Shown piece after piece: positions 55,787 through 63,397 of a DNA stretch of 64,000 nt. Numbering within the stretch: position 1 is the first letter of the stretch; every line of letters begins with the position of its first letter. The notes below the pieces were generated by a model. It did not search any database. It was not told the DNA's origin and saw only the letters and a program-made list of their open reading frames with translations. The translations under genes and the position numbers were made by a program. This stretch comes from Peteryoungia desertarenae (lineage in GTDB: Bacteria; Pseudomonadota; Alphaproteobacteria; Rhizobiales; Rhizobiaceae), in assembly GCF_005860795.2 (NCBI RefSeq), contig NZ_CP058351.1, forward strand, positions 124,001 through 188,000, read 5' to 3'.

Positions 55787-56117
55787 CGTCGACTGTCTGC
55801 AGGTTGTGTGCCTGCACGGTGCCTCGCGATAATATAGAAAACGCTAAAGGAAGCGGATCTTTATTTAGTTATCTGTTATAACCGGCAAGTCGCTATCCTG
55901 GCAGCCCCAGCAAGCTCGCTTGGTCCGGGACAGGGTTATCTCTGATGAAGAAATCATACGCTAAAGCGCCGGGTGAGTTGTCCGGCATCAGACCGGTCAA
56001 GCGGTTCAGCTGCAGGCGGCCTGTCACGGAAAGTGCAGAAAATCTTAATTGAACAATTAGCGCCTATTAAATCATTTGCGTCTAAGACGGACGTTGATTA
56101 CGCAGCTCGATCGTCTG

Positions 56118-57410
56118 ATGTCGTTTGTCAAAGACAGGAATGCAAATGTTGCGATCATGTTCGCACTTACCATTCCCATTCCGATCATTCTGTGCGGAGG
56201 CGCCCTCGACATCGGCCGGCATGAACTGATGCGGGTGCAGCTGCAGGATGCCGTCGACCGGGGTGTGCTTGCCGCAGCCTCCCTGACACAAACTCAGGAT
56301 TTCGAAGCCACGCTGTCGGACTATGTCAAGGCGCTCGATTTCGGTGATGCCGTTGCGCTGAGCAAGAAGGCCGACCTGTCTCTGAATGCCCGCCAGGTAT
56401 CAGTGACGGCTGAATACAAAATGCAAACCTATTTTCTCCCGTTGATTGGTATTGACGAGCTCACGGTCGTCGCTTCGGCGGAAGCCCGTGAAGCCAAGCG
56501 CAATATCGAATTATCGCTGATGCTCGACATGTCGGGCTCGATGATCACCAATGACCGTATCGGCAAACTCAAGAATGCGGCCAAGGCGTTCATCGACCAG
56601 GTTCTGACAGATGAGGCAGCCAAGCATACGACGATCAGTATCGTTCCATATGCGGGGCAGGTGAATATCGGAGAAAAGGTTTTCAATCGCCTTGGTGGAA
56701 GCTCGGCGCGTATGCATGGTTACAGCTCGTGTTTTGCCCTGACGGCGGATGACCACGATGGCTCTGCACCGGATTTCAGCAAGCGTCCCCAGGTTGCTCA
56801 CTACACGAACTGGAACTTTGGGCGTACGGACATGAACTGGTGGTGATGTCCCGATGAAACGACATCCATTACATATCATTCAAATGATGCTGCCTTCTTG
56901 AAAAGCAGGATCGATGAAATGGTGATGCATGACGGAACCGGAACGCATAATGCCATGCAATGGGGTTTTTGGCTGCTGGATCCGGGGTCCAGGAAAATCA
57001 CGGAGGCTGCTGTGAAAGGCGGCGTCATGGCGGAAGAATTCAAGGATCGTCCTGCAGCATTCGATGACACCGAGACCGTCAAATACATCGTTTTGATGAC
57101 AGATGGTGCCATTTCCGATCAATTCAGCCCCAGAGACCCAGATCGCGATCCGTTCAAGCTGCCACCGAACAACAAACGCGACTACGCCGCCAATGAGGCG
57201 GTCAAACGTTTCGAGGCTGCATGCCAGCAGGCAAAGGACAAGAATATTACCGTCTTTACAATTGGCTTTGAGGTGAACAGCACGGCAGAGGCTCAAATGA
57301 AGAAGTGTGCCAGCTCCGCGGCACATTTTTACAAGGTGAGCGGCCTTGCCATTGAAGATGCCTTCAAGTCGATATCGACGACCCTCAACAAGCTTCGGTT
57401 GACCCAGTGA
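56118..57410 (+). pseudogene. TadG-like pilus-assembly protein with vWA domain, in-frame stop
   Basis: A 430-codon frame broken only by TGA at 56844-56846. The N-terminus has the TadE/TadG-type helix (VAIMFALTIPIPIILCGGAL). The vWA MIDAS is LMLDMSGSM at about residues 134-142 and the later strand is YIVLMTDGAIS. The stop follows two Trp codons (DMNWW) and the same frame continues CPDETTSITYHSNDAAFL, where homologues commonly have a Trp-Cys-Pro run, so TGG to TGA is likely. A TTG at 56076 is an alternative start. It would be membrane-anchored and work with the two TadE genes downstream. It may be inactive or a sequencing artefact. Confidence 0.75.
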
Positions 57411-57946
57411 TGGCGAAAGGGTCGAAATTTCGTTCCCGTTGGTGCAGGCTCGCCACAGACCGCGGGGGATCAACGGCTGTCGAATTTGCCCTTGTCGCGC
57501 CTCTCTTCTTGTCCTTGCTGTTTTCGGCAATCGAAATGGGTTGGGTCATGACACAGTCCATGGTGCTGGAATCGGCTGTCAATCGTACGGCAAGATCCAT
57601 GCAGGTTAACGCCGGGACCGTGTCGGCGAAGGATTTCAAGGCGTCAGTGTGTGAGCATGCCAGCATCTTGAAGAACTGTGAAGAAAACCTGATCTTCGAG
57701 CTTTCTCCCGTTGGACAGAAGTCCGATATCCCTTCGGATCAGACTCCTTGTATCGACAGGGCGAACGCTGCCACTCCCGTGACCAAGTTCAATCCCGGCA
57801 GTGGCAATGAGATTGTTTTTGGTCGTGCCTGTTTTGTTGTGGATCCCCTGACACCCGGATTGGGTGTCGCCCTGTCCCTGCCGCTTGACGCATCTGGCGG
57901 GTTGCGACTAACGGCCCGTTTTGCCTTTGTGACGGAAGCCATATGA
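57410..57946 (+). CDS. TadE-family pilus-assembly pseudopilin-like protein 1
   Basis: A 178-residue protein with the TadE N-terminal motif (DRGGSTAVEFALVAPLFLSL), including the Glu at the membrane helix start, and a periplasmic C-terminal domain with several Cys. It overlaps the previous stop (TGATG) and the next start, so the three genes form one operon. It is thought to act in Flp pilus assembly; no tadA, cpaB or flp genes are in the window. Confidence 0.85.
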   Translation: MAKGSKFRSRWCRLATDRGGSTAVEFALVAPLFLSLLFSAIEMGWVMTQSMVLESAVNRTARSMQVNAGTVSAKDFKASVCEHASILKNCEENLIFELSPVGQKSDIPSDQTPCIDRANAATPVTKFNPGSGNEIVFGRACFVVDPLTPGLGVALSLPLDASGGLRLTARFAFVTEAI

Positions 57947-58458
57947 TGAAGGGGTTGGTCGGCGACAGAAGCGGGACGGCTGGCGTCGAATTCGCACTTT
58001 TGATTCCGATGCTGATCCTGCTTTTTCTCGGTACTATTACCCTGTTTGATCTTTACCGCGAATACTGGCGGCAGGTTCAGGCAACGCATATCGTCTCTGA
58101 TCTGATCTCTCGCGAGACGGTGGTCTCTGATGCCTATCTGACCAAGGTCTTCGATGTCTATTCGGGCCTCCTCAACGTTGAGGCAGCAGGCAAAGCCATG
58201 CGGATATCGAGTGTGACCTTCAACGGCAAGGATTACATTTCTGTCTGGACGGTTGAGAAGGGTGACCCAGATCTGATCCCGAAACAGAAGCTTTCAAATG
58301 CCGGGTTGCCGGCAATGTCCTCCACGGATACCGTCATCTATGTCGAGAGCTTCGGTACTCACAAACCCTTCAGCAGCTATCTGGGCTTTGCCAACATGAC
58401 CTTTGCCGAAGCGGCTGTTGCAAGACCTCGCTTCGTATCGGCGATCATCAAGGAATAG
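57943..58458 (+). CDS. TadE-family pilus-assembly pseudopilin-like protein 2
   Basis: A 171-residue protein with the TadE motif (DRSGTAGVEFALLIPMLILL) and one N-terminal membrane helix. Start by ATGA overlap with the previous gene; an ATG at 57946 is an alternative. Last gene of the TadG-TadE-TadE set. The 58459-58739 gap after it shows nothing recognisable. Confidence 0.85.
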   Translation: MMKGLVGDRSGTAGVEFALLIPMLILLFLGTITLFDLYREYWRQVQATHIVSDLISRETVVSDAYLTKVFDVYSGLLNVEAAGKAMRISSVTFNGKDYISVWTVEKGDPDLIPKQKLSNAGLPAMSSTDTVIYVESFGTHKPFSSYLGFANMTFAEAAVARPRFVSAIIKE

Positions 58459-58739: not shown

Positions 58740-59978
58740 TCACCGACTTTCCGCTTCGACACGGCGCAGAGTGGCCAGGACCTCATCCACCGTGATCCCG
58801 GGTTGCCAGAGCGCATCGTCGAGTGCCATCCAGAACCGCACCGCAGCCGTTGGGGAATCGGTATGTGGCTCCAGTTGATAGGTGCTCACTGCCGGATCGG
58901 CAATCTTGAACAGGGCCAGCCGCGCACAGTCATCAAGATCGCCGGTTTCGGTATCGAGCCGGGGCGGTATCGAACCCTTGATGTTGGAAAAGGCCACCTG
59001 CACCTTGGGGTCCATGGTCGCCGCGATGATCTGTGCCTGCGCCATCCTGATTTCGGGATTCGCCGAAGGCGGAAAGGCAAGACTGTCGACCACAACGGTC
59101 AGGAGCCAGTCGTTGCCGGGCGGCACGAGGCAGGCAATCTGATCGCGGCGGTTATCGCCGACCGGCGGCAGCTCGCCTTTCAGCCAGTCGCCCATCAGGT
59201 AAAACGCTGCCTTGCCCTCGATCAAGTCACTGGCCCCCTCACTCCAACTGCGCTTGCTCTTGTCGCGCGACAACAGCGGATTGAGATCCACAAGCGTCTG
59301 GACGACCTCCTTGAGGCGCGGATGCTGCAACACGGCCTGCCAGTCCGGTCGCTGATTGGCCTTGTCCGGCGGGCCGATCAAGTCTGCAAGCACGGCGCGC
59401 AGCAGGATGGCGCGCACCCAGTCATCGTCGGTGACAACCAGCGGCTCGATGCCCTGCTCCTTGAGCCGGCGTGCGGTCGCGACGATATCGGCCCAGCTCT
59501 TCGGCAGCGCAAGACCGTGGTCGGCAAGGACCGCCTTGTTGACCCAGAGCCAGTTTTCCACATGCACGCCGACGGGGACGAAATGGATCTTGCCCTTGTG
59601 GCTGATGCGGTCCAACACCACCGGTGCCAGAACATCGCTCCAGCCTGATGTCGGGGTCAGCGCATTGATCTCGGAAAACATGCCGAGTTCGATGAAATGC
59701 TTGGTGTCGCCGTCCTGATACCAGTGCAGGGCCGCAGGTGGGCGGCCATCGCCATAAAGCCGCATGAAGGTCTTGCGCAGCTCCACGCTGGTGGGCATAT
59801 GCACCACGGTCATGGTGCCGCCGCGGCGAGTGACTGCGCTCGAAATCTCCTGAAGCGCTGCCGTTTCGCCCTTCGAGTTCCAATGGGTCATCAGATCGGC
59901 TGCCTCGGGCTGCTGCCCGACCGTCTGGAAGAGCATGAATAGGCAGAGCGCCAGGCGATGGGGCATCAGGTTCAACAT
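58740..59978 (-). CDS. Orphan ABC-type solute-binding protein (family 1)
   Basis: A 412-residue periplasmic protein with a signal peptide of about 27 residues (ending PEAA-DLM). LMTHWNSKGETAALQEISSA at the start and YLMGDWLKGELPP in the middle place it with sugar-type binding proteins. No ABC permease or ATPase is nearby. It is downstream of the GGDEF-EAL gene on the same strand with about 100 bp between, so it may serve as that protein's ligand sensor rather than in transport (see findings). The ligand is unknown. Confidence 0.88.
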   Translation of the reverse strand: MLNLMPHRLALCLFMLFQTVGQQPEAADLMTHWNSKGETAALQEISSAVTRRGGTMTVVHMPTSVELRKTFMRLYGDGRPPAALHWYQDGDTKHFIELGMFSEINALTPTSGWSDVLAPVVLDRISHKGKIHFVPVGVHVENWLWVNKAVLADHGLALPKSWADIVATARRLKEQGIEPLVVTDDDWVRAILLRAVLADLIGPPDKANQRPDWQAVLQHPRLKEVVQTLVDLNPLLSRDKSKRSWSEGASDLIEGKAAFYLMGDWLKGELPPVGDNRRDQIACLVPPGNDWLLTVVVDSLAFPPSANPEIRMAQAQIIAATMDPKVQVAFSNIKGSIPPRLDTETGDLDDCARLALFKIADPAVSTYQLEPHTDSPTAAVRFWMALDDALWQPGITVDEVLATLRRVEAESR

Positions 59979-60067
59979 CGGTCTCTCGTTCGTCCGGCGA
60001 TCTTGGGCCGGTGTTTCGGTCAGGCATTGCAGGGCCCAATTTCAAGCCTCAATTTGAGGCAAGTGGT

Positions 60068-62167
60068 TCAAACAGGCGCTTCAGGCGGGCATTGGTTGGT
60101 GGAGAACCGGGCGCACCCGTCGCGGACCTCGTTTGCGGCGGTCGGTATCGGATGGGGCGGTCGCGTCGAAACCGGCGATCCACTCGCGCAGTTTCGGCTC
60201 CGGCATCGGCGGCGCAAACAGATAGCCCTGCACCATGGCGCAGTCGAGCTCGGCCAGGAACCGGAACTGCTCCTCCGTCTCGACCCCTCGGCCACGACGC
60301 TGCGGTTCAACCCCTTGGCCAGGGAAATGATGGACCGGACGATCTGCTCATTGGCATCGCTGACGCCGATATCCTTGACGAAGCTGCGGTCGATCTTGAT
60401 CTCGTCGAAGGTGAATTCGCGCAGATGGCTGAGCGAGGCAAAGCCGGTGCCGAAATCATCGAAAGCGATGCGCACGCCGCGCTGCGACAGCCCGTTGACC
60501 ACTTCGTGGATCGTATCGGCCGCGCGCGACACCAGCACATCCTCGGTGATTTCCATGGTGAAGGCCGAGCCTTCCAGGCCATGGCGCTCCAGCGTCTCGA
60601 TCACGCTGGAAAGCCCGGTGCGGCTCGCCAGCAGCGCCTCGGGCATGTTGACGGCCACATGCCTGATCGGCAGGCGCTCGTCGATCCAGCCGCGCATGTC
60701 GCGCCCGGCGGCATCCAGCATGAAGCGGGTGAGATCGGCAATCTTGCCGGCCCTTTGCACTGCCGGCAGGAACAGCGCCGGCGGCAGCAGGCCCTTCTGA
60801 CCATGACGCCAGCGCACCAGCGCCTCGACGCCGATGACGCTGCGCGTCGCCACATGGATTTTCGGCTGATAGAAGGCCTCGAATTCGCCAGCCGACAGGG
60901 CACGGTTGATATCGCGCAAGATGGCGGCTTCCTCGTCGGCGACCTCGCGCTGCCGCGGTGTGATCACATAGGTCGGCCTGCCGCCATTCCTGGCCTCGTA
61001 GAGCGCCTGGTCGGCATAGGCGAGCAGCCGGTCCGGCGTGTCGCGGGCCGATAGGCAGAGCGCACCACCGACCGAGGCCGAAATATCGACATCAAAGCCG
61101 GTTCTTCTCCAGGAAAATGTCAGTGTCTCGCGCACCCGTTCGACCAGGTCGGTCAGACCCTCGGTATCTCTGACCCCGCGCCCCAGGACGGCGAATTCGT
61201 CGCCGCCGAGCCGGGCTACAAGCCCCTTGGCGCCGACCCCCTTTGTCAGGCGTTCCGCCACATCAATCAGGAGCGCGTCGCCCGCATCATGGCCAAAGCT
61301 GTCATTGATCGACTTGAAACGGTTGATGTCGCAGACCACCACGGCAAAGCCTGCCTGCTCATGGGTGGCAGGAATGGTGCTTTCCAGCTCGGTATGGAAG
61401 CGGCGCCGATTGGCAATCCCCGTCAGGCTGTCGCTGAAGGCCTTGCGGCGCAGTTCCGCCGTCCTGTCTTCGGCCCGTTGATATTCGGCGCCGAGCCGGC
61501 GGATCAGCGGTCCGAAGATGAGCCCGGTTTCCAGCGCCAGGATCAGCAAGGTGGCGACCGTCAGTCCGATCTGGACCTGGCGCAGCTGCTGTGCCCTGAG
61601 CCGCGTCTCCGTCTCGATCTCCCGCATCGCTGCCTTGAAGCCGGAAATGATGCCGTCGCCGGTTTGCAGGGCAATATCGACGGCAACCGTGCCATTGTTG
61701 TGATAGCGCAGTTCCCGCAGAGTAAATTCTGAGACATTCTTGGCCCGGATCAGGGCAAAATCCAGCCAGTATTCCAGCCGGTGCGGCGGCTGGCGATAGA
61801 TCGCCACCACATGTTCGGGTATGCCACTGAAGGTCTGACCCTCGCCGGCATCGAGCAGCGCCTTCATCTGCCGGTTAAAGCCTTCGAGTTCGGCGGCGGC
61901 GCTGGCCAGTTTCCGGCGCAACGGCATCAGATCGGCATCACTGGCATCGCTGCGCTCGGAGGCGGCAATCACCATCCGGCTCGCCGTCATCACCGCCATG
62001 AATGCCTGCGTCTGCTGGCTGGCCACCGTGCCTATGCTCGCAGCCCCGGTCTGCATCTTGCCCGCCCAATGCATTAGCACAGCGCCACACAGGGCCACTG
62101 CCGCCAGAATGCCAATGGCCAGCAGGTAGTTTTTCCTGATCAGGGATATCTGGGATTGTATCGTCAT
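60068..62167 (-). CDS. Membrane GGDEF-EAL c-di-GMP protein, frameshifted near the end
   Basis: About 695 residues after correction. Helix 1 is at 14-34, a periplasmic sensor at 35-198, helix 2 at about 199-219, GGDEF at 240-400 and EAL behind it. The cyclase site is RLGGDEFAVLG (321-325) with no RxxD inhibitory site. The phosphodiesterase motifs EALVRW, EITEDVL, DDFGTGFASLSHL and KIDRSFV are intact. At VVAEG the frame breaks: the C-run 60284-60287 (plus strand) is one base short, and in the other frame VETEEQFRFLAELDCAMVQ GYLFAPP continues to a stop at 60081-60083. The start at 62167 is preferred to 62218. Confidence 0.88.
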   Translation of the reverse strand: MTIQSQISLIRKNYLLAIGILAAVALCGAVLMHWAGKMQTGAASIGTVASQQTQAFMAVMTASRMVIAASERSDASDADLMPLRRKLASAAAELEGFNRQMKALLDAGEGQTFSGIPEHVVAIYRQPPHRLEYWLDFALIRAKNVSEFTLRELRYHNNGTVAVDIALQTGDGIISGFKAAMREIETETRLRAQQLRQVQIGLTVATLLILALETGLIFGPLIRRLGAEYQRAEDRTAELRRKAFSDSLTGIANRRRFHTELESTIPATHEQAGFAVVVCDINRFKSINDSFGHDAGDALLIDVAERLTKGVGAKGLVARLGGDEFAVLGRGVRDTEGLTDLVERVRETLTFSWRRTGFDVDISASVGGALCLSARDTPDRLLAYADQALYEARNGGRPTYVITPRQREVADEEAAILRDINRALSAGEFEAFYQPKIHVATRSVIGVEALVRWRHGQKGLLPPALFLPAVQRAGKIADLTRFMLDAAGRDMRGWIDERLPIRHVAVNMPEALLASRTGLSSVIETLERHGLEGSAFTMEITEDVLVSRAADTIHEVVNGLSQRGVRIAFDDFGTGFASLSHLREFTFDEIKIDRSFVKDIGVSDANEQIVRSIISLAKGLNRSVVAEGSRRRSSSGSWPSSTAPWCRAICLRRRCRSRNCASGSPVSTRPPHPIPTAANEVRDGCARFSTNQCPPEAPV

Positions 62168-62620: not shown

Positions 62621-62744
62621 ATGAGGCTTGTCATGGCTGCCGCAGCTTTCCTGGCGAGGCTCGGGCCAATCTGCGCCGCGCGGCGGGTGGCAAACCGAGC
62701 AAGAGGAGTCCAGATCTTCCAGTCGCCGCATGACCCGGACCCAT

Positions 62745-63397
62745 GGATTTATGCCGGACTGCTGGCGCGTTACGGCGCGCTTCTTGAACCGCGCCTCCAT
62801 GAGGGCAACACGCAAATCTACAATGACTTCAAAGAGTTGCGTGTGGCGCGGCTGGCCCTCATCAAGGACAGGGCGGCCGCGAAGAACAGGGCCAAGACCC
62901 TTTCCAACCCGCTCCTGAAGAAACACAACACCGACAGGCTCAGGCAGATCGGGCGCCAGATCAAGGCAGTGGAGGAGGCCATCATGAGTCTGGTTGGCGA
63001 GGACGCAACCTGGCTGGCCCGGTTCTACATCCTCGTATCGATTCCTGGCCTCTCACAGATCACGGCCTTTACGCTCCTCATCGAGATGCCCGAGCTTGGT
63101 GACCTCAATGAAAAGGCTGCGGCAGCCCTTTCCGGTCTTGCTCCGATGAGCCGCCAGTCCGGACGATGGACCGGACGCGCCTTCATCGCCGGCGGAAGGG
63201 CCATCGTCCGCCAATCCCTCTACATGCCCGCTCTCGTTGCCTGTCGCTTCAACCCGGACCTCCGCGCCAAATACAGTCACCTCAAAGCCGCTGGAAAAGC
63301 GCCAGAAGTCGCCATCACCGCCATCATGCCAAAGCTCATCGTCCTCGCTAACGCAATGCTGAAAAACAATCGCAAATGGATCCCAAAACCAGCTTGA
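62745..63397 (+). pseudogene. IS110-family transposase, C-terminal part
   Basis: The frame is open from 62621, but similarity starts at about 62745 (YAGLLARYGALLEPRL). The DEDD catalytic domain (about 110 residues) is missing. The C-terminal domain is complete: FYILVSIPGLSQITAFTLLI and the serine-containing segment MSRQSGRWTGRAFIAGGR. A truncated element cannot transpose by itself. Confidence 0.78.

Follow-up and report, generated by a model that had tools for sequence, protein, structure and literature searches.

A glucose-family binding protein encoded beside a membrane GGDEF-EAL protein in Peteryoungia desertarenae: a candidate sugar-type analogue of NspS-MbaA

Introduction

Can a sugar outside the cell set the level of the second messenger cyclic di-GMP (c-di-GMP) through a binding protein that has no transporter at its side? 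This question is raised by two adjoining genes of Peteryoungia desertarenae, one for a membrane protein of the GGDEF-EAL type and one for an orphan solute-binding protein (SBP), in a stretch of 64,000 nucleotides (hereafter the window; C2:124001-188000 of a three-contig, 4.34-Mb genome). A sequence-only reading of the window had taken them for a c-di-GMP sensor resembling NspS-MbaA of Vibrio cholerae, built on another SBP family and new in its group. Sequence comparison and analogy with known systems suggest, with a probability of about 0.7, that the two genes encode a two-part receptor in which an outside sugar would set c-di-GMP by docking of the SBP.

Periplasmic proteins are known to act on membrane receptors. 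Maltose-binding protein (MBP) docks on the chemotaxis receptor Tar, and a periplasmic protein controls a GGDEF-EAL membrane protein in the ScrB-ScrC system of Vibrio parahaemolyticus, as is proposed for the window pair; that system, likened here by description only, differs in its three-gene scrABC arrangement and in its type of periplasmic protein. The output of MBP-Tar differs as well, being chemotaxis, and likeness of fold alone shows no function. Cyclases and phosphodiesterases appear among the SBP-activated receptors in the cited part of an SBP survey (PMC9602780). In the cited sections of a review of c-di-GMP sensing, EIIA-Glc, a phosphotransferase protein, is named for sugar input, and SBP_bac_3 is said to be the only one studied among the periplasmic-binding-protein domain families (PMC8846402). 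The literature searched, which included few subscription journals, yielded no description of a glucose-family SBP paired with a GGDEF-EAL protein.

A sugar-type binding protein beside a GGDEF-EAL gene

Open reading frames and Pfam matches in the window placed the receptor gene and then the SBP gene directly adjoining on one strand.

62167-60068, minus strand: membrane GGDEF-EAL receptor gene, ATG at 62167, out of frame past about residue 628
59978-58740, minus strand: SBP gene (orphan binding protein, 412 aa), matching SBP_bac_1/SBP_bac_8, GtsA/GltB glucose-binding family

The SBP, within an open frame of 433 codons, matched SBP_bac_1 (E 8.2e-11) and SBP_bac_8 (E 1.1e-10), and its N-terminus resembled a signal peptide by eye. 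With phmmer it was related to the Pseudomonas putida protein 5dvf (E 2.5e-36), and its AlphaFold2 model (mean predicted local distance difference test score 89.2) matched 5xpj in Foldseek at E 9e-27. The nine best PDB rows were all glucose/galactose-binding proteins, sequence and fold being in agreement; judged by sequence and modelled fold, the SBP is a member of the GtsA/GltB glucose-binding family. The description of a sugar-type SBP next to a GGDEF-EAL gene was thereby confirmed, and a sugar-like ligand is predicted from the family membership. Among the 12 glucose contacts listed for the P. putida protein in PMC7927077, 11 could be mapped (H379 lay outside the alignment), and six of them (W36, E41, W250, W270, D303 and K339) correspond to identical residues of the window SBP, namely W33, E38, W245, W265, D298 and K334.

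The absence of an ATP-binding cassette (ABC) partner, which had also been claimed, agreed with the search of 19 kb around the pair (L038), where a sugar permease query from the same genome, the only query used there, had no match. A search of the genome with PF13416 listed no hit closer than 8 kb to any EAL gene; this search was incomplete, the window SBP itself being unlisted.

The architecture is that of NspS-MbaA, in which a periplasmic SBP gene likewise adjoins, and is co-directed with, a GGDEF-EAL gene whose product carries a periplasmic domain between two membrane helices (identified here by eye and from a model). NspS-MbaA is known in Sinorhizobium meliloti too (PMC9993111), and both facts would suit a diverged but true polyamine system. 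However, NspS is PotD-like and binds polyamines, whereas the solved relatives nearest to the window SBP, by sequence and by fold, bind glucose or galactose; in addition, nspS precedes mbaA in V. cholerae, as given in the cited part of PMC9993111, whereas the receptor gene comes first in the window, and the window GGDEF and EAL domains are not intact in one frame. Because the window SBP is not PotD-like, the pair would be an analogue and no member of NspS-MbaA, and a diverged polyamine system is very improbable.

Distribution of the pair

Co-occurrence in relatives had been set beforehand as a test of the pairing. The pair recurred in alpha-, beta- and gammaproteobacteria; the test did not refute the claim, and a chance adjacency was rejected. 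The same order (receptor, SBP, no matching sugar permease nearby) was found in Rhizobiaceae and two other families of the order, and likewise in Halomonadaceae, Oceanospirillaceae, Oxalobacteraceae and Comamonadaceae.

In the family search (199 genomes, 146 with a match), 29 loci besides our own were read, with flanks of 1.5 kb unless fetched longer. The window SBP scored 940 bits and the next four (L005-L008, 31-32% identical) 192-200 bits, and all four of these had a GGDEF-EAL gene directly upstream on the same strand; among the 25 lower-scoring loci, a GGDEF-EAL gene lay within 1.5 kb in none and a permease gene was present in 24. The genus search covered 63 genomes, and the 10 loci fetched (nine besides our own) placed the pair in four of them (our own and L043-L045).

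From named genomes, the 80 best of at least 560 confirmed loci entered the comparison, and permease presence was judged with two proteins of the P. desertarenae genome; Pfam classes the permease queries as BPD_transp_1 and the ATPase queries as MalK-like. The pair occurred in 20 of these 80 loci, a permease in 53, neither in seven and both in none. The 20 pair loci belong to Ensifer/Sinorhizobium, Rhizobium and other Rhizobiales, Ciceribacter, Rugamonas, a comamonad, Billgrantia, Litchfieldella and Marinobacterium; none of them matched either permease query, and three had some ABC ATPase match, one of which was weak.

A search of 397 genomes of the order with a window-type profile gave 26 matches, of which 20 were fetched. 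Fifteen had a permease instead of the receptor, and three, from two other families of the order, were pairs nearer to ours (L167-L169; full loci L186-L188), with SBPs 32-35% identical to the window SBP and, for the two receptors aligned, 46 and 41% identity to the window receptor. In the phylum search (398 genomes, larger-group profile; 80 genomes with a match, 30 loci read), only two genomes, with three places between them, reached scores of 720 bits or more, and the next 28 fetched loci (at most 330 bits) all had a permease; the window SBP scored 232 bits. The pair type is thus widespread in alpha-, beta- and gammaproteobacteria yet rare, and is not limited to P. desertarenae.

Variants of the arrangement were also seen. 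One receptor is followed by two tandem pair-type SBPs in Litchfieldella anticariensis (L068 1439-6182) and in another genome (G633, L189 4593-9482), and a receptor start beside an SBP fragment, a decayed pair remnant, was found in a third (G194, L135 1471-2038).

Lineage of the pair-type binding proteins

An SBP from a transport family might serve an ABC importer encoded elsewhere and stand beside the receptor just for co-regulation. Two paralogues in the genome are encoded with permease genes (L039, L040), permeases could in theory be shared, and the ABC ATPase matches in three named pair loci would fit this view. It was set against the lack of permease matches in all 20 named pair loci, against the retention of the pair over three proteobacterial classes, and against the descent of the SBPs.

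The descent was examined in a tree of 68 thinned rows, made up of 20 of 30 pair rows plus P0090 and P0091 (gene context not known), 33 of 88 permease-linked rows plus four added, and the nine rows with neither partner. P0090 and P0091 are database proteins 55-58% identical to the window SBP. One branch parted the 22 pair-side rows from the 46 others with a support of 100/97, in a tree that contains a long end branch (L188, 1.42) and seven rows of odd letter make-up, among them L186, L188 and P0090. In the first tree, the window clade had consisted of three rows on a stem of 2.43, the corresponding branch had a Shimodaira-Hasegawa-like approximate likelihood ratio support (SH-aLRT) of 91, and the pair label needed two changes, with P0090 and P0091 labelled apart. 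That the window pair is a stray outlier of the transport clade was rejected, since with L186-L188 added it grouped with the other pairs. Bit scores gave a similar division: against a pair reference no pair row scored below 427 bits and none of the 93 permease-linked rows above 253 bits, the window's own row being an exception at 198 bits.

Three residues, W86, I125 and E141, are common to the window group and to 99% or more of a wider set of pair-side proteins (26 from loci and P0001-P0089 less P0070, most without known gene context), and are found in 1, 3 and 14% of the 88 permease-linked proteins. They also hold in the three later-added pairs, which were not used for choosing them. R124, F133, R221 and L356 held in the discovery set and not in all three new pairs, and were rejected as marks of the family.

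On these sequence grounds the pair type appears to be an analogue of NspS-MbaA, of sugar type, that arose once. Because the pair-side proteins form a separate clade, a permease partner elsewhere is unlikely. The likeness to NspS-MbaA with a different SBP family is accordingly our best reading of the pair, as the co-occurrence, the lineage of its own and the precedent of GltB (PMC7927077) speak for it.

The receptor

The following parts of the receptor were distinguished.

62069-62125, minus strand: membrane helix 1 (residues 15-33, approximately), a stretch judged hydrophobic by eye that falls within helix 3-70 of the model
61574-62065, minus strand: periplasmic sensor domain, about residues 35-198 (about 160 residues); modelled helical bundle
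61505-61573, minus strand: membrane helix 2 (residues 199-221, approximately), a stretch judged hydrophobic by eye that falls within helix 173-234 of the model
60977-61441, minus strand: GGDEF domain; site intact (RLGGDEF), RxxD inhibitory site absent (GAKG)
60916-60284, minus strand: in-frame part of the EAL domain, covering profile positions 2-210 and retaining the EAL, N, E, DD, K and E residues
60287-60207, minus strand: EAL remainder (profile positions 210-236), read in another frame, with the break at about 60284-60287

A structure model of the N-terminal 235 residues showed two long helices with hydrophobic stretches flanking the helical domain, in agreement with the two membrane helices and the periplasmic domain of about 160 residues described from sequence. 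The sensor domain, or the first 240 or so residues of the receptor, had no Pfam match at E 0.001; it is modelled as a helical bundle, perhaps of the four-helix kind seen in Tar and NarQ. The window sensor is homologous over its full length to the sensors of other pairs, the profiles of the two family halves matching at E 1.3e-19 in hhalign, and in the 199 family genomes the full-length sensors of the larger group belonged to a pair in four of four cases.

The cyclase site had been described as intact and free of an RxxD site, and this is correct for the window. The RxxD site is present, however, in 22 of the 27 pairs, which indicates that its loss is not a feature of the family. Catalytic residues are conserved in the related pairs. 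The protein had also been taken for a whole GGDEF-EAL protein; the GGDEF part of this claim stood, whereas no single frame holds the complete EAL domain, the break near 60284 having been overlooked, and the tail of the receptor open reading frame (716/699 aa) is out-of-frame sequence. With its EAL domain interrupted and its RxxD site lost, the window copy, if expressed, would at most synthesize c-di-GMP without breaking it down, so that the window receptor may work one way, as a cyclase only, or be undergoing decay.

Neighbouring genes

A Tad/VWA pilus-type gene (56076-57410, plus strand) lies in two halves, with an in-frame TGA at 56844-56846, and is followed by TadE-like genes (57407-58458), the second of which is under the Pfam cut-off. 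A Tad-type gene (PF13400) also stands after the pair in a second locus (L037 9190-10545) of genome G029, for which Rhizobium anhuiense is the nearest row in the first tree. The receptor may be linked to pili or attachment, the Tad-type gene being found by the pair in these two loci only. On the other side, an IS110-type transposase gene (62621-63397, plus strand) lacks the first 100 or so profile positions (it matches 101-342 of 343). Genes for HlyD, FtsX and an ABC ATPase, about 2-5 kb upstream of the receptor gene and just past the window end, form an export-type ABC system.

Discussion

Several observations weigh against the proposed two-part receptor or against its window copy. In the glucose pocket of the SBP, H stands in place of W35 and of Q90, Q in place of K92 and V in place of N301, and G68 is gapped. 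W35, K92 and N301 are likewise not kept in the 26 other pair-side proteins from loci, but many permease-linked relatives depart there too, with W35, Q90, K92 and N301 retained in only 58, 71, 24 and 29 of 88. Since these four contacts are not kept, the sugar claim rests on the family; the sugar response supposed in the sequence-only reading is likely on that basis, though part of the pocket is changed. E141 occurs in one of the two peptide patterns by which the named loci were selected, and its frequency there is partly by construction. Matches to helical bundles are common among helical models, and the sensor profile of the larger group, searched against the P. desertarenae genome at E 1e-5, missed the window sensor, which hhalign does find. 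Moreover, adjacency of genes can be deceptive: in the cited part of PMC11113362, no binding was observed between the sensor domains of two kinases, AgtS and AruS, and the SBPs of neighbouring genes.

The remaining points concern decay of the window copy. The EAL domain of the window is the only one among the 21 listed for the genome that continues in another frame, and the only one broken among 27 distinct pairs, the other 26 being intact there with the C-terminal QG motif kept. None of the 119 ABC_tran matches listed in the same genome was carried on in another frame, and general frame noise of the assembly is therefore unlikely and was rejected; a single sequence error at the break is still conceivable. 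Together with the in-frame stop in the adjoining Tad/VWA gene, the truncated IS110 transposase upstream and the decayed pair of another genome, the break may mean that the locus is a decaying pseudo-operon, in which the pair is without function here while the family works as proposed. Against this, the SBP frame and the GGDEF domain are intact with their key residues present, and the last 26 or so EAL profile positions, though out of frame, still match the profile (E 3.9e-6), which points to a recent break or to a sequence error at this one place. Decay of the window copy is, in our judgement, a serious possibility, though short of probable.

For the two-part receptor as a family, the GtsA/GltB proteins offer a comparison. 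GltB also serves glucose uptake, and the family is encoded with ABC permeases, whereas the pair loci of the named genomes had no match to the two permease queries. GltB of Pseudomonas aeruginosa binds the sensor domain of GtrS with a dissociation constant of 0.1 uM, and GtrS is no longer activated when residues of the GltB glucose pocket are changed to alanine (PMC7927077). The GltB-GtrS/GltR system resembles the proposed window receptor in having a glucose-binding protein of the P. putida 5dvf family as co-receptor of a membrane sensor (PMC7927077), and differs in its output, which is a histidine kinase and gene regulation instead of the c-di-GMP output expected here with no permease found nearby.

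By analogy, we propose that the SBP would be secreted to the periplasm, as its N-terminus suggests, and would close on its ligand, most likely a sugar to judge by its family. The loaded SBP would then dock on the helical sensor of the receptor, as MBP does on Tar and GltB on GtrS, and docking would shift the helices running into the membrane and change the balance of GGDEF cyclase and EAL phosphodiesterase, by which the outside sugar would set c-di-GMP and, through the pair, probably the choice between swimming and settling. A more specific version, in which a widespread, undescribed class of periplasmic sugar receptors for c-di-GMP arose once by recruitment of a glucose-importer SBP to a four-helix-bundle GGDEF-EAL protein and the window receptor, having lost its phosphodiesterase end and its product-inhibition site, is a brakeless, one-way sugar-gated cyclase, seems doubtful to us.

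Orphan SBPs of the same family are also found beside other receptors in the named loci with neither partner. In L120 and L123, response regulator and histidine kinase genes lie just upstream, in L087 hybrid kinases stand on either side of two SBPs, and in L080 and L115 a Cache-type chemoreceptor is divergent from the SBP; L125 had no receptor among the open reading frames read. This suggests that the glucose-binding family has been recruited by several receptor types, namely c-di-GMP enzymes, histidine kinases and perhaps chemoreceptors. The SBP would offer a simple purified handle for identifying the signal. If the proposed receptor is true, root-associated and other bacteria would set attachment or motility directly by outside sugars, without transport or metabolism.

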